Part shown: piece after piece, positions 3,147 through 57,403 of the stretch
How positions within the stretch are numbered: position 1 is the first letter of the stretch
How the letters are laid out: each line of letters opens with the position of its first letter
Origin: Bacillus sp. ISL-41
GTDB taxonomy: Bacteria; Bacillota; Bacilli; Bacillales; Cytobacillaceae
DNA length: 64,000 nucleotides
Direction: 5' to 3'
NCBI RefSeq assembly: GCF_018613235.1
Contig: NZ_JAGGQP010000012.1
Span: forward strand, 1 to 64,000
The notes under the pieces: model-generated
The model's input: only the letters and a program-made list of their open reading frames with translations
Databases searched by the model: none
Told to the model about the DNA's origin: nothing
Position numbers and translations under genes: made by a program

Positions 3147-5174
3147 TCAAGTATGTTGATAATTTTTCCCAAGCAAATGGTCAAGGTTATATTTTCTCAG
3201 TTTACTGGCAGCTGTCTTATGGGTGATTCCCAGCGCTTTTGCCAGCTGGTTGTAGCTTGGATAAAAACGGACTGCGTGTTCAAAGATTTGCTTCTCGTAT
3301 GCTTCCAATGTCAACACTTCCTGATTGAAATCCAGTGCCATCGTTTTCCGGCTCTGATTCAATATGTATTCAGGCAAGTCCCGGCAGTAAAGTGTGTCAT
3401 CAGTTGTCAGTGCAGCAGTTCGTTCAATAATATTCTGGAGCTCCCTGATGTTCCCCGGCCAGTGATAGCTTCCGAGCGCCTCCAGAAACCCTTTTTCATA
3501 CAGCTTGATACTTTTTCCCATCTGACTGTTAAAATGGTTGCGAAAGTGATCAGCCAGGAGCGGAATATCTCCTTTTCGGTTCCTTAAAGGCGGCAGATGG
3601 ACCGGGATTACATTCAAACGATAATAAAGGTCCTCTCTGAACTTCTTTTCATCCATCAATTTGGACAAGTCTTCATTTGTTGCCGCAATAATTCGCACAT
3701 CCAGCTTAATGGTTTTATTTCCGCCCACTCTCTCAAATTCACGCTCCTGCAGAACCCTGAGCAGCTTTGCTTGTAAATCCATGTCAAGCGTCCCGATTTC
3801 ATCAAGGAAGATCGTTCCTAAGTCAGCCAGTTCAAATTTTCCCTGGCGTGTTTTATCCGCACCTGTAAAAGAACCTTTCTCATGCCCGAATAATTCGCTC
3901 TCAATCAGATTCCGCGGAATGACTGCACAATTCACTCTTATGAATGGTTTGTTTTTTCGATTGCTGGATTCATGGATGGCACGCGCCACAAGCTCCTTTC
4001 CTGTTCCGCTTTCACCGGTGATCACTACAGTAGAAATCGTCCTGGAGACCTTGTTGGCAATGGTAAGACTTTCCATAAGCGCTCCACTTCGCCCGATAAT
4101 ACAAGAAAAAGATTCATCAAGCTGAAGGTGCTTGTAAAGCTCACCCTCAAGATATTTCGTACGTTCTTCCATTACCTCAAGCTTTTTCATTAACGACCTG
4201 ACTTCATCAAATGGGCTTAAAGAAACGACGGCACCACGAAACTTGCTATCTATCAATATCGAATTTACTTTTACAATATAAGAGTCATTTTGAATCATTT
4301 TAATATCATTATAAAAAGCCGTTTTTCCAGCTGTCAGCTTTGACCACACTTTTTGGCCAATAAGCTTTTCAACGAACCTCTCCTTACACAAACCTTCCAA
4401 AAGCCTGTCCATCTGTTCATTCATATACATACAGCTGCCATCCCGGTCAGTAAGTGCTATGTAATCTGTGACAGAATCCAACACAAGATTTAGCTGTTCT
4501 TGAAGCTCCCGTTCTCTCCTCAGTTCCGAATTTATTTTTTCAAAATCAGAAATGTCCTGAAAAATAGCAACTGCACCAATGATTCTTCCATCGAGAAATA
4601 TAGGGGCCCGGTTTGCGAGAATCGTATATTTTTTGAGTATTTGCTTTTCAGCAAATACTGTCTTCCCGGTTTGCAGGATTTCATGGAGCTTGTAGTGGGG
4701 AACGATTTCATCGGCTCTTCTATTCAACAGCTCAAAAGCTGGTATTCCTAAAAGCCTGACTGCCGCTTCATTTACGAAGGTAATCATATTTTTGCTGTTA
4801 ACGACGATCATACCGTTAGGCATATTAGAGACAGCTTCCTGCATGATCACGGAGTTTTCCATCAGGAGCCTGTCCGTTTCAAGCTCCTTCCTGTCCTGCT
4901 GTACAGGTTCAGCAAAGAAGCTGGTAATTTCGTTTTTCAAATCAATGGGTAGATCGTCTTCAAACAGGAGTTTGATTTGCTCACCCTGATTCACTTTAAG
5001 GGAAACGAGCGAAAGCAGGTTGGTAACCCCGACGCGGCGGCCCTTATATTCAACAAAGAAGTTTTTCAGCGCAGAACCGTCCTTGAGCGCTCCTTGCAGC
5101 ATGGCAATCAATGACGCCGCACTTCTGACATGCAATCCATTTTTTTGGTTCATTTGAATGACTAGTTCATACAT
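3147..5174 (-). CDS. Sigma-54-dependent activator with an N-terminal HPr-like domain
   Basis: This 675-residue protein has in order an HPr-like domain (1-90, with GLHVRSAA and a His at 15), a PAS domain (about 112-215), a second PAS-like region (230-330), a short coiled coil, an AAA+ domain (about 355-590; Walker A GESGTGKE at 387-394, sigma-54 contact loop GSFTGA at 434-439, Walker B TIFLDE) and a C-terminal Fis-type helix-turn-helix. In the HPr domain the His is kept but the position equal to Ser46 appears to be Asn. This suggests sensing of PTS or DhaM phosphate but not of HPr kinase. It ends about 54 bases from the sigma-54 promoter of dhaK, so it is the likely dha regulator. The start follows AGGAGG. 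Confidence 0.93.
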   Translation of the reverse strand: MYELVIQMNQKNGLHVRSAASLIAMLQGALKDGSALKNFFVEYKGRRVGVTNLLSLVSLKVNQGEQIKLLFEDDLPIDLKNEITSFFAEPVQQDRKELETDRLLMENSVIMQEAVSNMPNGMIVVNSKNMITFVNEAAVRLLGIPAFELLNRRADEIVPHYKLHEILQTGKTVFAEKQILKKYTILANRAPIFLDGRIIGAVAIFQDISDFEKINSELRRERELQEQLNLVLDSVTDYIALTDRDGSCMYMNEQMDRLLEGLCKERFVEKLIGQKVWSKLTAGKTAFYNDIKMIQNDSYIVKVNSILIDSKFRGAVVSLSPFDEVRSLMKKLEVMEERTKYLEGELYKHLQLDESFSCIIGRSGALMESLTIANKVSRTISTVVITGESGTGKELVARAIHESSNRKNKPFIRVNCAVIPRNLIESELFGHEKGSFTGADKTRQGKFELADLGTIFLDEIGTLDMDLQAKLLRVLQEREFERVGGNKTIKLDVRIIAATNEDLSKLMDEKKFREDLYYRLNVIPVHLPPLRNRKGDIPLLADHFRNHFNSQMGKSIKLYEKGFLEALGSYHWPGNIRELQNIIERTAALTTDDTLYCRDLPEYILNQSRKTMALDFNQEVLTLEAYEKQIFEHAVRFYPSYNQLAKALGITHKTAASKLRKYNLDHLLGKNYQHT

Positions 5175-5312: not shown

Positions 5313-6965
5313 TTAAACAACAGGAGTAGTGGCCATATTGATTTCCTTATCAAGCTCTGCTTCATATCTTTCTTTTTCAGCATCGGCCCAGTTAAATTGT
5401 TCGGCCATATAGCCGCTGACAGCTGCTCTCGTTTCATGTACGGAGGTGATATCAAACAGCAAGTCGCCAGTCCTCCTGAAATAGAAATCAACCGGCGTTG
5501 CAATGAGCTCGTGCTCGATGCCATAAACCATTTTAGCAAAGGTGACTAACGGGATGCTGAACTTCTCAGCTTCTGCTTTTTTCTGGCTGACAAGATCGAA
5601 GATGATAGCGGAATTTGATCCATAGAACGCAGCAATATGCTTCGCTTCCTCTTTGGAGAAGCCGGCCTTTACTCCCTGCTGTGCAGCTGCTTCGACAAAC
5701 TGCGTGAACTTCTCTGAACCACCGAAGTCCCCTCCGGATATCGGCAAATGCATCGTCTGGCTTGGCTTCAGTTTCCGACCTTCCTCTGATTCAAACTTCC
5801 CGGCCACAAGGTCAACAATCGTTTCCGCCATCTTGCGATAACCCGTCAATTTGCCTCCGGCAATCGTAATTAAACCTGAATCAGATTCCCAAATTTCATC
5901 TTTACGGGAAATCTCGGAAGGTCCCTTGCCTTCTTCATGGATCAGCGGACGAATACCAGCCCAGCTTGACTCGACATCTTCAGGCTTCGCTTTCACCTCT
6001 GGGAACATGTAATTAATCGCATTGATCAAATAATCCATATCTGCCTGAGTCATTTTTGGGTCCGCTTTGTCCTCATCATAAAACGTATCTGTCGTCCCTA
6101 CATACGCCTTGCCGTTGCGGGGAATCGCGAACACCATTCTTTTATCTGGTGTATCGAAATAGACTGCCTGCTTGAGCGGGAATCGGGACTGGTCGATCAC
6201 GATGTGAACGCCTTTTGATAGAATCAGGCTCTTACCTTTCTTGGAGCCGTCTTTTTCACGGATGTTATCCACCCACGGACCAGTTGCATTGATGATTTTC
6301 TTCGCATAGACCTCGTATTTTTTCCCAGATAGTTGATCATTGACGATGACGCCCACAATCCTGCCATTTTCATAGAGAAGATTCTCGACCTTGGAATAGT
6401 TCAGAGCTGTTGCGCCTTTTTCAACCGCTGCCTTCATGACCTCGATTGTCAGGCGCGCATCATCGGTGCGGTACTCGACGTAATATCCGCCGCCCTTTAA
6501 ACCTTCCTTTTTAATAAGCGGCTCTCTCCGCAATGTTTCATCCTTGGAAAACATCGTTCTCCGTTCGCTCTTTTTTACCCCTGCTAAAAAGTCATAGACG
6601 CGCAGGCCGATGGAAGTCGTGAAGCTGCCGAATGTTCCGCCTTTGTGGAACGGGAGCAGCATCCACTCAGGAGTCGTTACATGCGGCCCGTTTTCATATA
6701 CAATCGCTCTTTCCTTACCGACTTCAGCTACTACCTTTACATCCAGTTGCTTTAAATAGCGCAAACCGCCATGCACAAGCTTGGTTGAACGGCTGGATGT
6801 ACCGGCCGCAAAATCCTGCATTTCAAGAACGGCGGTACTTAATCCTCTGGTCGCAGCGTCCAAAGCAATTCCGGCGCCTGTAATACCGCCGCCAATCACA
6901 AGTAAATCAAATTTATTTCTTTTTAAATTGGAGATAATATCATTGCGTTTTGTATTCGTGAACAT
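5313..6965 (-). CDS. glpD: Glycerol-3-phosphate dehydrogenase, aerobic FAD type
   Basis: The protein is about 550 residues from the ATG at 6965 (MFTNTKRND), which has AAGGGAGG in front. An upstream in-frame start at 7010 lies inside the leader terminator and is unlikely. The N terminus holds the FAD-binding [15 protein letters not shown] fold, followed by HGGLRYL and the C-terminal DAO_C region. It oxidises glycerol-3-phosphate to dihydroxyacetone phosphate at the membrane and feeds electrons to the quinone pool. The gene has its own promoter and a long leader terminator, so GlpP should control it separately from glpFK. Confidence 0.96.
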
Positions 6966-6991
6966 GGTGTTTTCCTCCCTTAGAACAGGAA

Positions 6992-7042
6992 AAGAGACCA
7001 CGAAAAACATTACCTAATGGACGGTAATGCTTCGCGGTCTCT
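6992..7042 (-). terminator. glpD leader terminator, probable GlpP antitermination target
   Basis: Between the promoter and the glpD start, the minus strand has a long inverted repeat. The outer arms are AGAGACC/GGTCTCT and the inner arms CATTACC/GGTAATG, and TTTT follows. B. subtilis glpD has an equivalent leader terminator that GlpP overrides when glycerol-3-phosphate is present. The same arrangement precedes glpF here. Confidence 0.85.
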
Positions 7043-7075
7043 CCAGATCTCCTGCCGTTTTATTAACTTGTTATT

Positions 7076-7105
7076 ATTGTATCAGATTCCTCTATGATAT
7101 GATAA
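7076..7105 (-). promoter_or_regulatory. Probable sigma-A promoter of glpD
   Basis: On the minus strand a -10 TACAAT and a -35-like TTATCA are 18 bases apart, directly upstream of the leader terminator. The -35 matches 4 of 6 consensus bases, so strength without help would be moderate. Confidence 0.55.
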
Positions 7106-7124
7106 TGTCTTATTTTTGAATTTT

Positions 7125-8630
<1,506 letters not shown>

Positions 8631-8666
8631 CTATTATATTTAACCGTTTTCATTTTTATCGATATA

Positions 8667-9491
8667 TTATACGCCTACTTTAGATGGATCTATCTGCCCT
8701 GCTTGTTTTTTTCCTACTGTATAAGCTAATGCAAGAATTATTGCTACTATACCAACTACAACCCAAAAAGTCTCTGTGACTGCTCCCGTGAAAAGAGCTT
8801 TGTAAGCGACTGCTCCAAGTGATCCTCCTAACAGAGGTCCAACGACCGGAATCCATGAATAGCCCCAGTTTGATCCGCCTTTGCCCGGAATCGGCAGGAC
8901 GAAGTGGGCAATTCTCGGCCCAAGATCACGTGCCGGGTTGATGGCATAACCTGTTGTACCGCCCAGTGACATACCAATTACAACAATCAATAATCCAACT
9001 GCAATCGGGTTTAATCCCTCTGTAAACTGATTTGCTCCGATAAACAATAATCCTAAAACAAGAATAAAAGTGCCAAAAACTTCACTGAATAAGTTAGAAA
9101 ATGTGTTTGGAATTGCAGGTCCTGTTGAGAAAACGCCCAATTTTGTGCCCGGATCATCTGTTGCCTTCCAGTGAGGAAGATAATGCAAGAATACTAGTGT
9201 TGCTCCAATAAATGCACCAATCATCTGCGCCAGCATATAGCCTGGTACATCTGCCCATGGGAATGAGCCATCAATCGCAAGTGCCAGAGTAACCGCAGGG
9301 TTCAAGTGCGCCCCGCTTATTGAACCAACCGCAAAAACTCCCATTGTAACCGCAAGTCCCCACGCAATTGTAATGACAATCCAACCGGCATCCTTAGCAT
9401 AAGAATTCTTTAGCGAAGAGCCAGCTCCAATCCCGGCACCGAAGACAATCAAAATCATCGTGCCAATTACTTCTCCCATAAATGCTGACAT
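8667..9491 (-). CDS. glpF: Glycerol uptake facilitator (aquaglyceroporin)
   Basis: The protein is 274 residues from the ATG at 9491 (MSAFMGEVIG), which has GAAAGGGGA in front. A longer reading frame to 9620 passes through the leader terminator and is rejected. The two NPA boxes of the MIP family are present, in HLNPAVTLAL and AINPARDLGP. The Asp after the second NPA (NPARD) is typical of glycerol channels rather than water channels. Six membrane spans are expected. It is the first gene of glpFK, controlled by a strong sigma-A promoter, a cre-like site and a GlpP leader. Confidence 0.96.
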   Translation of the reverse strand: MSAFMGEVIGTMILIVFGAGIGAGSSLKNSYAKDAGWIVITIAWGLAVTMGVFAVGSISGAHLNPAVTLALAIDGSFPWADVPGYMLAQMIGAFIGATLVFLHYLPHWKATDDPGTKLGVFSTGPAIPNTFSNLFSEVFGTFILVLGLLFIGANQFTEGLNPIAVGLLIVVIGMSLGGTTGYAINPARDLGPRIAHFVLPIPGKGGSNWGYSWIPVVGPLLGGSLGAVAYKALFTGAVTETFWVVVGIVAIILALAYTVGKKQAGQIDPSKVGV

Positions 9492-9720: not shown

Positions 9721-10269
9721 TCATTGAGCAAAGTGTTTCCAGCATTCTTTCTTCGAAGTCGTGACAGCTTCGGCTCCAGCATCCAGAGCTTTTTCCACAT
9801 CCTGAATACTTCTGATGAAACCCCCAGCTAACAGGGGAATCTTAACCCTTTCCTTCACCTCTCCTATTATCTGGGGTACAATGCCCGGGAGGACTTCAAT
9901 AAAATCAGGCTTCGTTTTTTCAAGAAGTTTATAGCTTTTTTCAAGCGCATGGGAATCCAGTAGAAAAATCCTCTGAATCGCCAGGACATCTTTCTGCTTC
10001 GCTTTTAAAATCACATTGGACTTGGTCGAGATCAGCCCATATGGTTTATATTCCTGACAGATAAACTCCGCGGAATAATCATCGCTTTTAATTCCATGGA
10101 TCATATCCATATGGTAAAGCATCTTCTTCCCATGTGCTTCCGCCATCGTACTAACATGCTTCAGCTGAGCAATATGCATTTCAAGAAAGACGCCAACTTC
10201 ATATGGGCTTTCCAGGAACCGCTCAAAATCCTTCATGTTCGTGCATGCCGGGAGAATTTTTTGATTCAT
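9721..10269 (-). CDS. glpP: Glycerol uptake operon antiterminator GlpP
   Basis: The protein is about 182 residues from the ATG at 10269 (MNQKILPAC). Family stretches are YGLISTKSNV, RIFLLDSHALEKSY, VLPGIVP, IPLLAGGFI and AGAEAVTTS. GlpP binds leader RNA in the presence of glycerol-3-phosphate and prevents termination. It precedes glpFK with its own transcription unit, as in B. subtilis. A longer in-frame reading to 10389 runs through a dispersed repeat and is not credible. The ribosome binding site (AAGGATG) is modest. It resembles the second copy at 17-598 along its whole length, so they are paralogues. Confidence 0.93.
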   Translation of the reverse strand: MNQKILPACTNMKDFERFLESPYEVGVFLEMHIAQLKHVSTMAEAHGKKMLYHMDMIHGIKSDDYSAEFICQEYKPYGLISTKSNVILKAKQKDVLAIQRIFLLDSHALEKSYKLLEKTKPDFIEVLPGIVPQIIGEVKERVKIPLLAGGFIRSIQDVEKALDAGAEAVTTSKKECWKHFAQ

Positions 10270-10329
10270 ACATTTCATCCTTTTAAAATCGTTTATTTTC
10301 CATGATAAAGAGAAGAGTGAGCAGGGGGT

Positions 10330-10408
10330 GAGCAGGGGGACGGTTCTCCTGCTCACTTTTTTTGTGTCCGGGCGGTTAAATGTGAGCACAAGAACCGTCC
10401 CTCTGACA
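10330..10408. repeat. REP-like inverted pair, simple type
   Basis: Two inverted copies of the 26-base unit (core GGGACGGTTCT and AGAACCGTCCC) are separated by about 28 bases containing TTTTTTTGTGTCCG. It ends five bases from the stop codon of the M20 peptidase gene and lies before glpP. Confidence 0.9.
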
Positions 10409-10412
10409 ACAT

Positions 10413-11555
10413 TTACTCCTCATCCTTTGTCCCAATACTAACCAGCAGGTTTGTGAAAAATGCTGCTCGTTCTGGGATTTGGCTGATGATGATGTGTTCG
10501 TTTCTTGCATGGATTCCGTCACCAATGATACCAAGGCCATCCAGGGTTGGGATTCCCATGTTGGCTGTGAGGTTTCCGTCACTTCCTCCTCCAACAGAAG
10601 CTTCTTTTAATTTGAAGCCTTCTTCTTTTGCTGCTTCTTTGGCGGTCTGGAATAGATCTTTTGTATCTTGGTTTCGTTCCATCGGCGGGCGAGAAATGCC
10701 CCCTCGAACGTCGATACTTGTTCCCTCTGTGAATGGTGTCAGTCCACAAATTACTTCATCAATGTTTTCTTGTTCTTCACTGGTTATCGCACGGACATCG
10801 ATGCCAATCTCTGCATGATCAGCCACGACATTGAGCTTGCCTCCGCCTTTAACAAATCCAACATTGACTGTGGTTCCGGCCTCGTAATCTGTCAATGACT
10901 CTAAATAATCAATGACCTTGGCAGCCTCTTGAATAGCACTTGCTCCTTCATGATGGTTGTTGCCAGCGTGGGCAGCCTTGCCTGTAATATCAATATGATA
11001 ACGCGCTGACCCTTTTCTAGCTGTTTTTAAGGCACCCGTCCGAACAACGGGTGGTTCCGTAACCAATGCATAATCACAATCCTTCGCTATCTCTTCAATA
11101 ACATAGCGTGATGTCGGACTGCTCACCTCTTCATCACTGGTAAAAAGGAAAACAATTTTCTTTGAGAACGGGATGTTCAGTTCCTTAATGGCTCTTATTG
11201 CCCAAAGCGCTTGCACAAGGCCTCCCTTCATATCCAGGATGCCAGGCCCATATGCACAATCGCCTTCGATTTTAAACTCTAATTCTCCAGGCTCCCATAC
11301 TGTATCAAAGTGGGAAAGGATTAAGATGGTTTCATCTCCTTCCCCGAATTCAAATTTCAAATGATTCCCGTACTTCTCTTCTTCCAACACTTCTGCCCGT
11401 TCGCCAAAGTAGCGATATAAAAGCTCCTGTATCCTCTCTCCACACTCGTCCACGAGTTTTTTATTTAAGGATGGAGAATCACTTTCGACCAGAAACTTGA
11501 TATCATCTAAAATCTCCTGCAAATGGTCCTCCATAAACTGCCTTATGGAATCCAT
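10413..11555 (-). CDS. M20 family metallopeptidase (carboxypeptidase G2-like)
   Basis: This protein of about 380 residues has the M20 dizinc pattern: SHFDTVW (His and Asp), GPGILDMKGG (bridging Asp), TSDEEVSS (catalytic and zinc Glu pair), EPP and a late His in ARNEH. There is an internal dimerisation domain with GKAAHAGNNHHEGASA. The family cleaves terminal amino acids from peptides or acyl amino acids; the substrate cannot be read from the sequence. I prefer the ATG at 11555; a GTG at 11564 in frame is also possible. The stop codon is five bases from a REP-like pair. It is divergent from the amino acid transporter operon. Confidence 0.9.
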   Translation of the reverse strand: MDSIRQFMEDHLQEILDDIKFLVESDSPSLNKKLVDECGERIQELLYRYFGERAEVLEEEKYGNHLKFEFGEGDETILILSHFDTVWEPGELEFKIEGDCAYGPGILDMKGGLVQALWAIRAIKELNIPFSKKIVFLFTSDEEVSSPTSRYVIEEIAKDCDYALVTEPPVVRTGALKTARKGSARYHIDITGKAAHAGNNHHEGASAIQEAAKVIDYLESLTDYEAGTTVNVGFVKGGGKLNVVADHAEIGIDVRAITSEEQENIDEVICGLTPFTEGTSIDVRGGISRPPMERNQDTKDLFQTAKEAAKEEGFKLKEASVGGGSDGNLTANMGIPTLDGLGIIGDGIHARNEHIIISQIPERAAFFTNLLVSIGTKDEE

Positions 11556-11630
11556 TAATATCACGCTGCTTTCTTAAATTTATTTGATAAATCCGCGTAT
11601 TCGATTTTACTATTATAACATTTACATAGT

Positions 11631-11711
11631 GTGCAGGGGGACGGTTCTCGTGCTCACTTTTTTGGTGCCAGTGCACTGAAAGGTGAGCACAAGAACCGTC
11701 CCTGTGCTAAC
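11631..11711. repeat. REP-like inverted pair, simple type
   Basis: An inverted pair of units with cores GGGACGGTTCT and AGAACCGTCCC brackets about 28 bases starting CACTTTTTTGGTGCC. It is in the divergent region between the M20 peptidase and the ABC transporter, one of the few copies at 5' ends of genes on both sides. Confidence 0.9.
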
Positions 11712-16709: not shown

Positions 16710-16721
16710 CACAGTGAATGT

Positions 16722-16804
16722 CAAGCACAGGGACGGTTCTAGTGCTCACTTCCAACCACTACGACAGCAAAAAAATGAGCAGGAGAACCGTCCCCCTGCT
16801 CACA
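16722..16804. repeat. REP-like inverted pair, simple type
   Basis: The forward unit (16723-16749) and reverse unit (16776-16803) lie between two convergent genes, 13 and 5 bases from their stop codons. It may be the only transcription end signal for both. Confidence 0.9.
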
Positions 16805-18962: not shown

Positions 18963-19229
18963 CTATCTGACTAGGTATAACTTTCGATACTTTTTGTTTT
19001 CCTTAACGATTTCACCGAACTTTCCCTCTTTAACCTCTAACTTATCCAAATTATAACAATAAAAATGCGTAAAGTGATCAAATAGCTTATTCACTTGTAC
19101 CATATCATCTTTCCCCTCTTTTAATAGAACATGGATATGGTTGGACATCAAACACCAAGTAATACACCTGTAACCCGATCTTTTTATATATTCTTTAAAT
19201 CTCAAGGAACCTCCTGGGGTCCTCATCAT
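18963..19229 (-). pseudogene. Remnant of a REP-associated tyrosine (Y1) transposase
   Basis: The 88-codon frame contains WCLMSNHIHVLLKEG, which corresponds to the HUH motif region WCLMNNHLHLLVKEG of the complete transposase at 38766-39548. The segment before it (RFKEYIKRSGY) also aligns. The N-terminal start block with the first beta strand is missing, and the C-terminal half with the catalytic tyrosine segment is lost. It is therefore a decayed relative, not a functional gene. Confidence 0.8.
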
Positions 19230-38647: not shown

Positions 38648-38762
38648 AGTGAGCAGGGGGACGGTTCTTGTGCTCACTTTTGTAGGGTGGATGTTAGCAG
38701 GGGGACGGTTCTACTGATTGATTTTTGAAAAAACAATCAGTAGAACCGTCCCCCTGCTTGCA
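38648..38762. repeat. REP-like array next to the RAYT transposase gene
   Basis: Forward units at 38649-38676 and 38694-38720 and a reverse unit at 38733-38761. The last two form a tight hairpin with only about a dozen bases between them. The array ends four bases from the transposase stop codon. Confidence 0.93.
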
Positions 38763-38765
38763 ATC

Positions 38766-39548
38766 TCAAAACCAGGCTTTTTTGATTAAACTGGGAGACA
38801 CACCTAGAATCCTGGATGCCTGGCGCTGCGAGAGTCCTTCTATTAATTTTATTTTCTGGAGGGTATCATTTCTCTCGGACTTTGGCAAACTCTTAATTTG
38901 CGGGATCATCATATTGCCCAAAAGTAGATTCATTTCCTCCCTTGCCTGCTCATCGGTTAGCCTTCTTCTTTTCCATCCCTCGTCCATGCATTCATCCTGA
39001 CTGCTTTGCTCGTTGAATTCCTTGAACTTTTCCCGCGCGACTGTAGGGTCCTCCGATATCATTTGAAGCACCTTTTTACTATTAAGTAAGTCATCAGGGT
39101 AATTCTTCTGACCGCAATAAGCCGGATAACTGCTCCACGCCCAGCTATCAATCCGCTCTACGATTCCTGCCTTTACCGGATTCTGGTGTATGTACCTGAT
39201 GACAGTCATGAAATAACGCCTATTCTCTACATTCTCACTTCTAAAACGGTCCTGGAATAAATGTCCTGAGGTTTGATACTTGAGGTTATAATACGCAGCA
39301 TAGCTAACGGTGATCCGTTTCATGGTTACCGAAAGTCCTTCTTCCCCTTCCTTAACGAGGAGGTGAAGGTGATTGTTCATCAGGCACCATGCATAGACAC
39401 TCATACCTGATTCATCTTTGTACTTTTTCAGGATATCCAGGAACTTCTTATTGTCACGATCATCATGGAAAATTTCCTGCTTATTGGCTCCTCTCAGCAT
39501 GACGTGATAGATACCGTTTCTACTTTTAATACGGGGTTTACGGGGCAT
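38766..39548 (-). CDS. REP-associated tyrosine transposase (RAYT, Y1/HUH family)
   Basis: The protein is about 260 residues from the ATG at 39548 (MPRKPRIKSRNGIYHVMLRG); a GTG at 39560 is also in frame. The Y1 family pattern is complete: the N-terminal strand YHVMLRGANKQ, the HUH motif NNHLHLLV (His64 and His66 of the longer frame), and the catalytic tyrosine segment VIRYIHQNPVKAG. A C-terminal helix-turn-helix follows (LSQRQASRILGVSPSLIKKAW). RAYT proteins cut and join single-stranded REP hairpins. Copies of the REP-like unit flank the gene on both sides (38648-38762 and 39754-39908), as in known REP/RAYT loci. Confidence 0.93.
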   Translation of the reverse strand: MPRKPRIKSRNGIYHVMLRGANKQEIFHDDRDNKKFLDILKKYKDESGMSVYAWCLMNNHLHLLVKEGEEGLSVTMKRITVSYAAYYNLKYQTSGHLFQDRFRSENVENRRYFMTVIRYIHQNPVKAGIVERIDSWAWSSYPAYCGQKNYPDDLLNSKKVLQMISEDPTVAREKFKEFNEQSSQDECMDEGWKRRRLTDEQAREEMNLLLGNMMIPQIKSLPKSERNDTLQKIKLIEGLSQRQASRILGVSPSLIKKAWF

Positions 39549-39753
39549 AATGGGGGTCACTGCCTTTCTGATTTGAGGTAGATAGGTTTCTTAAAGGGAA
39601 AAAAGATAGTTTAGAAGAAATGCTGGATGAATAGATTGGTGAATGGTTTACTAGGGGACGACGCAAGAAGAAAAAACTAATGGCACAAAACAAGGTTGAA
39701 ATGGATTATACTATACTAAGTATATCACTTTCTATAATATTTCAGCATATTAT

Positions 39754-39908
39754 TTCAAGCACTAGAACCGTCCCCCTGCTTCGTTATTATGCTGGAATAC
39801 CGATAGTAGGTGTGTTGGTGTTGGTCTGGACATTTGCAAGCAGAGGGACGGTTCTCCTGATTGTTTTTCCCTCGTAAAACGAGCACAAGAACCGTCCCTC
39901 TGCTCACA
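39754..39908. repeat. REP-like array upstream of the RAYT gene
   Basis: A reverse unit (39756-39782), forward unit (39837-39864) and reverse unit (39880-39907). The element lies between the transposase start and the SLH carboxypeptidase start, about 35 bases before the latter. Confidence 0.92.
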
Positions 39909-47995: not shown

Positions 47996-48079
47996 GTAAG
48001 CATGGGGGACGGTTCTACTGCTCACTTTTTTGGTGTCCGGCCGGTGAAGAGTTAGCACAAGAACCGTCCCTCTGCCCAC
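47996..48079. repeat. REP-like inverted pair, simple type
   Basis: The forward and reverse units surround TTTTTTGGTGTCCGGCCGG. The element ends two bases from the stop codon of the SLH-CAP gene. Confidence 0.92.
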
Positions 48080-49704: not shown

Positions 49705-49816
49705 ACACCCACACCCTTATGTGTTTTTCATGTTACGGTCTAACAAACTATCATTATGTAAATTATACCAATAAAGTATTTCTTTGTACCTATGAATTTC
49801 TCGAAATAAGCAAGGG

Positions 49817-49898
49817 TAAGCAAGGGGACGGTTCTCCTGCTCATTTTTTTGGTGTCCGATCAGTCAGAAGTAAGCACAAGAACCGTCCCTCTGCTTCC
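49817..49898. repeat. REP-like inverted pair, simple type
   Basis: The pair surrounds TTTTTTTGGTGTCCGATC. It lies between the divergent SLH-CAP gene and the helix-turn-helix gene. Confidence 0.9.
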
Positions 49899-50606: not shown

Positions 50607-50620
50607 TTGGAAATCAGGAA

Positions 50621-50703
50621 AAAGCAGGGGGACGGTTCTCCTGCTCACATTTTTGGTGTCCGGCCAGAGAGGAGTTAGCACAAGAACCGTCCCTGTGCTC
50701 AAC
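50621..50703. repeat. REP-like inverted pair, simple type
   Basis: The pair lies 15 bases after the stop of the XRE-type gene. Its right end is fused to the broken end of a PIN-domain gene remnant. Confidence 0.9.
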
Positions 50704-55249: not shown

Positions 55250-55302
55250 ATAAACCACCCCTAAAGGCAAAATAACTTAAGACAAATTATACCAAAAAAA
55301 TC

Positions 55303-55384
55303 AAGCACGGGGACGGTTCTCCTGCTCACTTTTTTGGTGTCTGGCCAGTGAGAAACAAGCACAAGAACCGTCCCTCTGCTCACC
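55303..55384. repeat. REP-like inverted pair, simple type
   Basis: The pair surrounds TTTTTTGGTGTCTGGCC. It lies between the divergent DUF2628 gene and the acidic surface protein gene. Confidence 0.92.
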
Positions 55385-55477
55385 TTTGCTATATCCCATT
55401 AATATCCACTATCTGTTTTTTCTGAATGGATATATAATTCTTCTGTAATGTATATGAATTGTAGGAGGAAGAAGTAC

Positions 55478-56689
55478 TTGAAGCGTGTTTTATCTTTTAT
55501 TTTGGCTTTTACTTTGACGTTGGGACTGGTGCCATTTGCAGCTTTTGCGGCGGTTGATCCACAGGATCAAGAGTTCCAAAATTTCATCCAGGAAATCGGT
55601 ATGTCTGAGGAGGAGTTCATTGCCTATATGAGTGACTGGCATGATTACTCTTTGGAAGAGTTTGAAACTCTTGAAGAGTTGACAGACTACCTGGGAGCTT
55701 TACTTGATGAAGAAAATCTCCAGGAATTGCTTGCTGATTTTGACATGACTGAGGAAGAATTCAACCAGTTGCTTGAGGAAAATGGAGCAACATTGGAACA
55801 ATTCGTTTTTTACGATGATTTATATTTCAGTGTATCAGAATGGCTGTATACTGAAGAATTGACTCCTATTACTGACGAAAACCTGCAAACGCTTCTTGAA
55901 GATTATGAATTTGTATCGATTGAAGAATTGGAAGCTTTCCTGAATTCCTATGATGATTCAATCGAAAACTATGAATATATCGAAGACCTTGAATTTGCAG
56001 TAGCAGAACACTACTTCATGGAATCCAAGGATGATTTGATCAACACTTTGGATTCTTTTGGTCTATCGCTGGCCGAAGCTAATAACCTTGGCAATCATGT
56101 GATTGCGATCATGGAAAATCCTGACCTCGATCCTGAACAATTTTTCACAGGGTTGGAGGAATACGGTGCAAGATTAATGGATTTCCCTGAGTTTGACAGT
56201 GCAACTGATCTTTCAGCTGAAGACATTGCCGAATTTATAGAAATTTGGGATGGCATGCTTACTCTATTGGATTTGAACGTAGAATACTACTTAATTAAGG
56301 ATGGCGTTGAGTCTTCTGTTTCATTTGCTTCCCTGATGCAAATGGATTCTACTAATGGAGCGGACTTAATGATAAAAATCCTTTCTACTAATGGTGACCT
56401 TTTAGCTGATATGGTTATCACAAAGGAAATGTTCGGTTCTGAATTCATTGAAGAAACCGGAGAAAATCTGGCAGATACAACTGAGGCAGCTGAAGGAGTC
56501 AAAAATGCTGCGGAAGAAATGAAAAAAGCTGAAGAGAAATCCCCTGCGGCCAAAGCACCTGCTAAAACTGTCAAGGGCGGCAAACTTCCAAACACCGCTT
56601 CAGATTACCCGCAAAATACAATGGCTGGATTAGCTATGATTCTTTTAGGAGCTATTGTATTCAGGAAAGTGAAAGCTAAACGTGTTTAA
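55478..56689 (+). CDS. Processed acidic surface protein with LPNTA sorting motif
   Basis: The likely start is a TTG at 55478, nine bases after AGGAGGA, giving a signal peptide MKRVLSFILAFTLTLGLVPF (cut after AFA). An ATG at 55448 lies before that site. The mature protein is about 380 residues, very acidic, with repeated helical units of about 45 residues (MSEEEFIAYMSDWHDYSLEEF and similar). The C terminus has KGGKLPNTAS, a hydrophobic span and RKVKAKRV, so it is a sortase substrate with LPXTA motif. It fits the family known as processed acidic surface protein. The sortase gene follows. Confidence 0.88.
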   Translation: MKRVLSFILAFTLTLGLVPFAAFAAVDPQDQEFQNFIQEIGMSEEEFIAYMSDWHDYSLEEFETLEELTDYLGALLDEENLQELLADFDMTEEEFNQLLEENGATLEQFVFYDDLYFSVSEWLYTEELTPITDENLQTLLEDYEFVSIEELEAFLNSYDDSIENYEYIEDLEFAVAEHYFMESKDDLINTLDSFGLSLAEANNLGNHVIAIMENPDLDPEQFFTGLEEYGARLMDFPEFDSATDLSAEDIAEFIEIWDGMLTLLDLNVEYYLIKDGVESSVSFASLMQMDSTNGADLMIKILSTNGDLLADMVITKEMFGSEFIEETGENLADTTEAAEGVKNAAEEMKKAEEKSPAAKAPAKTVKGGKLPNTASDYPQNTMAGLAMILLGAIVFRKVKAKRV

Positions 56690-57314
56690 ATATATGAAAG
56701 AGAGAAGAACCGGAAAGCTGGTTCTTCTTTCCTTATCCGTTGTCATAATCACATTCGGTTTCTGGTTCAGCGGAACAAACGCTTATAAATTTATGAAGGG
56801 CTATTGGCTTTTTAAAACTAGCGAACCCCAAACAGAGGTCGTCCTTGCCAATAAGACTGCTCAGACGGCAGATAGAAAAACGCAAGAGAATTCTGCCAGC
56901 CTCTATTCCGTAAGGCCTGAAAAAGGAGAAATGATCGGTAACCTGACCATTCCTAAACTCAACGCCAATTTGCCAATCTATCATGGCACAGATGAAGATG
57001 AGCTCGAAAAGGGAGTAGGGCACTTCGCCGGCAGCGTGCTTCCAGGCGAGAAGGACAACTCTGTTCTATCCGGTCACCGTGATACTGTTTTTCGCCAGCT
57101 TGGCAAAGTTGGCAAGGGGGATTTGCTCGTTGTCTCAACAGAAGCAGGAGAATTTACGTACAAGGTCAGAAAAGTCCGCATTGTTGATGCGGATGACAGG
57201 ACAGTAATCGTCCCAAAACCTCGCGCCACCCTGACCGTTACCACCTGTTATCCATTTGATTTCATTGGTGATGCTCCAGAGCGGTATATCCTAGTTGCGG
57301 ATTTAATTGAATAA
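56682..57314 (+). CDS. Class D sortase
   Basis: The 210-residue protein has an N-terminal membrane anchor (LVLLSLSVVIITFGFWFSG) and the sortase domain with the catalytic His in LSGHRDTVF, Cys in TVTTCYPFDF and Arg in ERYILVA. The TTC-YPF context and LPXTA partner point to class D. It overlaps the acidic protein gene by eight bases if the GTG at 56682 is used; an ATG at 56694 is the alternative. It should attach the acidic protein to the wall. Confidence 0.9.
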   Translation: MFKYMKERRTGKLVLLSLSVVIITFGFWFSGTNAYKFMKGYWLFKTSEPQTEVVLANKTAQTADRKTQENSASLYSVRPEKGEMIGNLTIPKLNANLPIYHGTDEDELEKGVGHFAGSVLPGEKDNSVLSGHRDTVFRQLGKVGKGDLLVVSTEAGEFTYKVRKVRIVDADDRTVIVPKPRATLTVTTCYPFDFIGDAPERYILVADLIE

Positions 57315-57319
57315 GCATA

Positions 57320-57403
57320 ATGAGCAGAGGGACGGTTCTCCTGCTCGTTTTTTGCGTGTTAGCGCAATGAGAAGTGAGCACTAGAACCGTCCCTCTGATT
57401 GAT
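57320..57403. repeat. REP-like inverted pair, simple type
   Basis: The pair lies between the convergent sortase and SLH genes, about 6 bases from both stop codons. Confidence 0.92.

Follow-up and report, generated by a model that had tools for sequence, protein, structure and literature searches.

A single-copy HUH/Y1 protein, termed RAYT-A here, probably recognises small hairpin units with the loop AGAACCGTCCC and multiplies them locally, the copies being kept between genes. That this enzyme and this repeat form a pair is close to certain. The window in which both were found is the whole stretch of 64,000 nucleotides that was analysed, C4:1-64000 of a genome of 4.62 Mb in 57 contigs (G000), which appears to belong to the genus Mesobacillus. 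A preliminary description of this DNA had counted about 55 units at about 27 sites, and the count holds up closely. The core AGAACCGTCCC is present in the window in 49 exact and six one-mismatch copies, against a chance expectation of 0.52 and a maximum of 3 over 100 shuffles, and after dropping the cores at 5073 and 61529, which lie outside the dense stretch and have no arms, 53 units in 26 sites are left between 10337 and 58873. The whole-genome search for the core that had been proposed finds 83 exact copies in G000; contigs C4 and C39 together account for 74 of these, the window alone for 49. Relatives share the core; between 61.6 and 100.7 kb of the contig there are zero exact cores.

The RAYT-A gene, its hairpin units and their placement

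The units said to adjoin the gene directly on both sides are there, three downstream and three upstream, and the gene lies within a dense field of further units. The features of the window are as follows.

10328-58892: dense field, 53 units at 26 sites, almost all of them intergenic
10328-10410: divergent pair, 54-bp family (REPIN-like)
11629-11711: divergent pair, 54-bp family
16721-16803: divergent pair, 54-bp family
38649-38760: three units downstream of RAYT-A (cores at 38658, minus; 38702, minus; 38742, plus)
38766-39560, minus strand: RAYT-A, a Y1/HUH transposase of 264 aa counted from GTG
39755-39907: three units upstream of RAYT-A (cores at 39764, plus; 39845, minus; 39888, plus)
47997-48079: divergent pair, 54-bp family
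49816-49898: divergent pair, 54-bp family
50620-50702: divergent pair, 54-bp family
55301-55383: divergent pair, 54-bp family; homology to the related genome G003 starts directly beside it, at 55401
57320-57402: divergent pair, 54-bp family, after the sortase gene; the G003 ortholog is without the element

The start codon of RAYT-A is likely the ATG at 39548, giving a protein of 260 aa, because the same MPR opens most of the aligned homologs. The gene had been described as a complete Y1/HUH transposase, and both motifs are indeed intact, the HxH as H64-L-H66 and the tyrosine motif as Y123-IHQ-N127-P128. When the window protein is aligned with 28 homologs, each 50-71% identical to it, H64, H66, Y123 and N127 are invariant (29/29) and P128 is not. 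The ORF scores 57 bits with Pfam Y1_Tnp and 84 bits, above the cut-off of 80, with NF047646, the NCBIfam model of REP-associated tyrosine transposases. An AlphaFold model (mean pLDDT 87.5) has as its top Foldseek match in the PDB 4er8, the E. coli REP transposase in complex with a REP hairpin (E 1e-7; TM 0.75 by target, 0.48 by query), ahead of IS200/IS605 transposases, and a sequence profile finds 4er8 (E 3.4e-8) as its sole PDB match up to E 1. Family model and fold match both bear out the proposed RAYT identity. The C-terminus carries an HTH at about residues 237-261; HTH_23 is detected in 21 of the 29 aligned members at E up to 1 (best 2.9e-5) and HTH_28 in 11/29, with both scoring under the Pfam cut-off in the window protein itself. 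By sequence, the protein would fit the HTH-bearing TnpA-Y1 subclass 2.1/TIRYT branch. The domain Bac_DnaA_C, considered as a replication link, was rejected: the domain scan of the 29 proteins gave HTH only, and Bac_DnaA_C is absent from the families listed for them, 25 of 37.

G000 has one intact type-A gene. A weak RAYT-like fragment within the repeat field (18987-19199, minus strand; 34% over residues 44-116, E 4.5e-6) is perhaps the remnant of an older RAYT copy. SLH domains occur in five of ten scanned ORFs of the field (window 22171-49667), one of these ORFs also having a subtilase, one an M14 carboxypeptidase and one an SLT domain; a sortase ORF (56682-57314) is also among the ten.

In 286 exact units from 35 loci, the 11-nt core is the near-invariant loop of a potential hairpin, whose arms measure about 8 bp. 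The unit consensus is approximately R-A-G-C-A-S-N-AGAACCGTCCC-Y-S-TGCT-Y-A-C, preceded by an A-rich stretch, and the arms vary by species, being GTGAGCA in G000 and TAAAACA in M. subterraneus. Across the 30 loci having at least two exact units, the consensus arms pair at 175/240 positions, compared with 162 +/- 3.5 when arms are shuffled among loci (3/5000 shuffles reach 175), and 17 pair types are seen among them vs 13.7 shuffled (152/5000). Swapping arms between units of one locus or genome leaves pairing unchanged (0.700 vs 0.703), so that no covariation is detectable within genomes and it is visible only between loci. The preliminary description had likened the whole to REP/RAYT loci. Its layout of a RAYT with flanking inverted palindromes stands, but the units are not classical REPs: GTAG or GTGG lies directly outside the stem in 1/286 units and anywhere in the 18 nt upstream in 20/286, and the core is nearly constant between genera.

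Inverted ends and a preponderance of inverted pairs had also been reported, and in the fetched G000 stretches 23 of the 34 neighbouring pairs at most 150 bp apart are divergent (unit 61529, on two overlapping stretches, is counted twice in this and in the placement and 3'-end counts below). Spacing is exactly 54 bp in 11 pairs of these stretches, eight of them in the window, and two of the eleven (L075, L078) differ in spacer sequence. The consensus of the 54-bp pairs fades at the outer arms, which suggests a REPIN-like element of about 80 bp; as in REPINs, the doublets are inverted and have a conserved spacer, the pair being a candidate mobile unit.

Most exact units (306/331) lie outside simple ORFs of at least 100 codons, in a count made without locus L032, which overlaps the stretches from G018. 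Gene 3' ends no more than 40 bp from the core were counted for 258 units: 93 are on the tail side and 15 on the head side. In the placement count, the gene ends next to a unit, at whatever distance, number 169 (tail) and 146 (head) for 3' ends and 128 (tail) and 146 (head) for 5' ends. Where the sortase gene ends, at 57314, a 54-bp pair is present in G000 and none in the G003 ortholog (83% identical DNA), and homology between the two genomes stops at approximately the sortase stop codon, a difference which could be the gain or the loss of an element. No target-site duplication is obvious at this one compared site pair, and no transposition, excision product or within-species polymorphism of units was seen. 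In 52/286 units the 8 nt behind the core are repeated in tandem 7-15 nt further on with at least 7/8 matches; control distances give 6 such cases and the 5' arm gives 3. The second tail copy follows CC in 47/52 of these, and the first follows the CCC which ends the core. Excision leaving a CC-tail followed by reinsertion, or else hairpin slippage, is a possible origin, and any mechanism must account for this footprint, a CC-joined tandem duplication of the unit's 3' tail.

Pairing of gene and repeat across genomes

A protein-only search of public genome contigs returned 37 loci, 34 of them at at least 50% identity. These 34 relatives of RAYT-A (50-71% identical) represent 16 named genera and three MAGs, and in every case (34/34) a core with at most one mismatch lies no further than 351 bp from the gene; an exact core lies within 600 bp in 31/34, compared with 1/34 for the reversed control. 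Two distant relatives (25-30% identity) have no core, and L068, a locus with a short matching fragment, has four, one of them 2 bp from the fragment. All 37 loci together, spanning 647 kb, hold 322 cores vs 5 of the reversed string. Co-occurrence was also counted across the order, in 219 genomes. Four or more copies of the repeat, counted as a 15-mer, are present in 21/27 of those having a close homolog (E about 1e-80 or better, a class which takes in G166 at E 1.9e-80 and the 47% identical G126) vs 14/192 others (Fisher p 4e-15). The link between RAYT-A and the core, first drawn from proximity and structure, is supported by adjacency and co-occurrence alike.

The correspondence has exceptions on both sides. 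Fewer than four copies are found in 6/27 genomes with a close RAYT-A, and the 14 repeat carriers without a close homolog comprise 4/31 and 7/74 genomes of the weaker-match classes and 3/87 with no match. Repeats without a RAYT gene or remnant had been named beforehand as evidence against the link, and such genomes do in part exist: G016 and G146, with 15 copies each, have no RAYT-A match at E 1e-10, and in G123, with 46 copies, the best protein match is just 38%, but G176 (30 copies) retains a RAYT remnant with three stops. These carriers indicate that repeats can outlive the gene or exist without it. The accompanying expectation, that genomes with the repeat carry the gene and those without lack it, is supported as an association across the order but only weakly within the genus. 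Nine Mesobacillus genomes whose homolog is full-length and at least 60% identical have 12 to 263 exact cores, the highest number being that of G018 (M. subterraneus), and nine lacking such a homolog have 5 to 27, with fragments in G009, G015 and G020; G001, which has RAYT fragments, has 5 cores. Zero exact cores are found in G010 (63% partial homolog in a genome 66% complete) and in G017 (44% homolog). The reversed pattern occurs 0 to 7 times per genome, so low core counts in the genus include chance matches, and, three genomes with 77-263 copies aside, the contrast within Mesobacillus is weak.

Locality around the gene and a second RAYT with its own repeat

Type-A copies are concentrated around their gene. 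Locality was counted in the 16 genomes with RAYT-A and a full position list, with no random draw and with G018 omitted (100 of its 263 places are listed). Units at most 200 bp apart were merged, those within 1.5 kb of the gene were dropped and the zone extended to 25 kb. Core positions were taken by 11-mer in G000, G002, G003, G006, G007, G008, G012, G021 and G022 and by 15-mer in the rest; several genome lengths are rounded, and matches on contigs other than that of the RAYT count as single far elements. Five matches on C2 of G026 were dropped, this being probably a duplicated contig because their spacing equals that of C1:3957572-3965035. Elements 1.5-25 kb from the gene are in excess in 15/16 genomes, 5- to 70-fold, with p at most 0.021 in 12/16; since the elements are not independent, these p-values are only guides. 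The numbers of elements within 25 kb are given here by genome.

G000: 22/54, 40-fold
G002: 0/15, with the nearest exact core about 36 kb from the RAYT
G003: 3/16, 9.4-fold
G006: 1/10, 10-fold, p 0.09
G007: 2/12, 17-fold
G008: 1/19, 5.4-fold, p 0.17
G012: 4/70, 5.3-fold, p 0.007
G021: 7/15, 46-fold
G022: 1/6, 16-fold, p 0.06
G026: 8/68, 11-fold
G049: 3/8, 36-fold
G124: 2/5, 37-fold
G140: 2/8, 8.5-fold, p 0.021
G166: 9/35, 20-fold
G215: 9/14, 70-fold
G231: 3/11, 25-fold

The locality of type-A copies round the gene is therefore strong, with G002 as a plain exception and with G006, G008 and G022 showing it weakly (one element each, p 0.06-0.17). In comparison with the fetched parts of G007, contigs C4 and C39 of the window genome match 4.33-4.46 Mb, the site of the G007 RAYT, and contig C16 matches the side 480-700 kb clockwise. 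In the complete genomes G003, G005, G007, G009, G011 and G020, the core is found mainly in two zones flanking dnaA, one about 240-430 kb away on the counter-clockwise side and the other 480-700 kb away on the clockwise side. Type-A clusters far from any RAYT are found in the clockwise zone of Mesobacillus, where the protein search of the complete genomes gave neither a RAYT nor a remnant, and in G026 at 0.4-0.54 and 2.5-2.6 Mb. Clusters of this kind, such as that 480-700 kb clockwise of the origin, may be older relics. The seven units of C16, in the clockwise zone, have mixed arms (AAGCA twice and five others once each), as would be expected of relics, whereas in the window 44 of the 49 exact units fall into three arm types (GAGCA 23, AAGCA 11, AATCA 10); against this, in G018 the same arm type prevails near the gene (46/49) and further along the contig (15/19).

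A coupling of the two replication forks through the origin-flanking zones was considered and rejected, the zones not being equidistant and G124 and G140 being enriched at a RAYT located elsewhere. A strand bias relative to the fork, as lagging-strand coupling would predict, is unsupported overall, since single units in 12 genomes show no overall bias with fork direction (102 vs 80, p 0.12). Single genomes differ: G021, G123 and G166 show the bias strongly, G026 lacks it and G003 has it in the opposite sense, with G123 represented by 18/46 15-mer matches, G166 by the 24/40 on the dnaA contig and G026 without C2.

A second Y1 gene, 37% identical to RAYT-A, lies in G000 at C23:266495-266992 (L083:9495-9992) and is flanked by a different palindrome, GGGGTCWGACCCC. 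Genes of this type B are present in G000, G001, G009, G011, G015 and G017, at 33-37% identity over about 145-180 residues. The palindrome GGGGTCWGACCCC has 25 copies in G000, 24 in G011, 28 in G015, 11 in G017 and four in G010, one each in G001, G002 and G016, and zero in 13 others, so that at least four copies are found in 4/6 type-B carriers vs 1/15 others (Fisher p 0.011). Its excess round the B gene is 48-fold in G011, 22-fold in G015 (which has two B genes) and 20-fold in G000, the last figure resting on 17 of 25 places listed, 12 of them on C23, with the remaining 13 copies taken as far. G011 also has a second GGGGTCWGACCCC cluster (6/24 copies, 4.549-4.563 Mb) without a listed B gene. 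In G011, 0/13 type-A matches lie within 25 kb of the B gene; in G000, contig C23, which carries the B gene, has 0/83 type-A copies; and the window has no GGGGTCWGACCCC up to one mismatch. Such separate A and B fields speak against a merely permissive zone.

Proposed mechanism, rival explanations and known systems

How RAYTs spread their repeats is, to our knowledge, an open question. In the proposed mechanism, RAYT-A would recognise a small hairpin in which arms of about 8 bp enclose the loop AGAACCGTCCC and would multiply the units, frequently in the form of REPIN-like divergent pairs of about 80 bp. New units would land mainly within tens of kilobases of the enzyme's own gene, and copies would persist where they are least harmful, in intergenic DNA and above all directly behind stop codons. 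By analogy with IS200/IS605 and E. coli TnpAREP, RAYT-A may cut and join single-stranded units, an activity that only family resemblance suggests, and the units are presumed to be mobile. Locality would result from an enzyme acting near its gene, by cis preference or by reinsertion near the donor, and not from selection. A more far-reaching version, which can be put forward only tentatively, is that RAYTs of this protein branch hold chromosomal territories, each multiplying only its own loop-tagged hairpin, and only within tens of kilobases round its own gene, through a cis-restricted single-strand reaction. If this is true, one chromosome bears separate, non-mixing fields of different repeats, and specificity is carried by the near-invariant loop, not by the stem or a foot tetranucleotide.

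Locality would be uninformative about the enzyme if the RAYT spread units everywhere and these survived only in gene-poor or accessory stretches, or arrived with imported islands in which they were already present. In 12 genomes, 203 of 254 listed matches do lie 200-800 kb either side of dnaA, and the window from about 11.8 to 55 kb is without a counterpart in G003, where the flanking blocks are 2.5 kb apart. However, two RAYTs in one genus have different repeats clustered at different genes, and in G124 and G140 copies are also enriched round a RAYT that lies well outside the usual zone, and we consider permissive or imported zones unlikely. A quite improbable reading makes the units 3'-end elements (terminators or mRNA stabilisers) maintained by selection, with the RAYT as a minor supplier. 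It would account for the marked tendency of unit tails to lie at stop codons, and divergent pairs could fold into long hairpins, yet the excess round the cognate gene is left unexplained, as is the fact that the loop, and not the stem, is constant, and the type of adjoining gene end is nearly equal on both sides, with just the distance differing.

Units might also be joining points which shuffle genes in and out of the array, in a loose parallel to integron cassettes. A unit is present in most intergenic gaps from 10 to 59 kb, three of four G003 homology blocks (9730-10307, 10414-11590 and 55401-57311) have one end at most 50 bp from a unit, and the M20 peptidase gene (10413-11564), bracketed by units in the window, is in G003 separated by about 77 kb from the block next to it. 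Few blocks were compared, however, the fourth (5313-8820) has no unit at its ends, and genes lie in both orientations, a mixture which makes an integron-like array unlikely; gene shuffling is accordingly given very little weight. That some other enzyme moves the repeats and the RAYT merely adjoins them is barely credible: repeats do occur without RAYT-A in some genomes, but the core lies beside the gene in 34/34 loci, down to 50% protein identity. One loop in 16 genera, arms that vary by species, relatives with and without the gene and, within one genus, two RAYT/repeat pairs in separate fields together provide a clean comparative system, in which locality is directly testable.

Among described families, the nearest is the TIRYT/TIRtron. 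In a broad survey, TnpA-Y1 subclass 2.1 carries a C-terminal HTH and probably corresponds to TIRYTs, REP-like sequences are stated to have been detected neither automatically nor manually at its genes, and REPs are called species-specific (Quentin 2018, PMC6006769). TIRYTs are described with a TIR motif, GGGGWSAS, and with TIR families of moderate abundance (Di Nocera 2013, PMC3733652); TIRYT/TIRtron, subclass 2.1 and RAYT group 1 are probably the same group. The system described here shares with them a class 2 Y1 protein, a C-terminal HTH_23/HTH_28-like domain and flanking inverted repeats. Agreement with GGGGWSAS is mixed, being exact in the type-B repeat (GGGGTCAG) and one base off in type A, just in those units with a fourth G (GGGGACGG, 17/53). 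Unlike subclass 2.1 as surveyed, repeat families are present here for both type A and type B, and the type-A hairpin has a near-invariant loop common to 16 genera, so that a repeat family now stands beside a protein branch where the survey found none (Quentin 2018, PMC6006769).

With classical RAYT/TnpAREP systems, whose repeats are GTAG REPs, REPINs and BIMEs (Nunvar 2010; Bertels and Rainey 2011), RAYT-A shares the HUH-Y---NP core, a single-copy gene between its own repeats, extragenic copies and inverted doublets. Unlike classical GTAG REPs, its units have no GT[AG]G foot, their constant part is the loop and not the foot, the core is conserved between genera (34/34 loci, at most one mismatch), and copies are mostly local, not genome-wide. 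IS200/IS605 transposases have the same HUH/Y1 fold, but RAYT-A has a single-copy gene, Y---NP in place of Y---Q and no identical multi-copy transposase.

P. fluorescens doublets are described as randomly spread over extragenic space (Bertels and Rainey 2011, PMC3116915). REPs gathered near rayt, in regions of up to about 200 kb, are reported from three marine gammaproteobacteria and from Thauera, the Thauera accumulation being explained by recent transfer (Nunvar 2010, PMC2817692). Local accumulation is thus not new as such. The repeats here likewise build up near the gene, but in a different phylum and protein branch, and locality in 15/16 genomes and with two RAYTs looks like a standing property, not a sign of recent transfer. 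As far as these sources go, what is new is the phylum, a repeat for this protein branch, a near-invariant loop across genera and a regular locality shown twice in one genus. Open-literature full-text searches with the core 11-mer and 10-mer on both strands gave, among the matches listed, none on bacterial repeats by title and start of abstract; matches to the type-B string were unrelated by title, and among the matches listed from the RAYT/TIRYT literature none was, by title, on a Bacillaceae RAYT repeat.

The type-A repeat is itself, judged by the junctions, evidently the target of an insertion sequence of about 1.73-1.76 kb with the ends GAGACCAGTGAAAAA, whose copy in L051 encodes an IS1182-family transposase (NF033551). 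Complete copies in three genera (L045:3309-5034, L049:10852-12606 and L051:11706-13432) are all inserted at one identical point in the repeat core, between AGAACCGTCC and GAACCGTCCC, with a 9-bp duplication, and half copies with one junction each lie in L061 (117, 10054) and L098 (11878).
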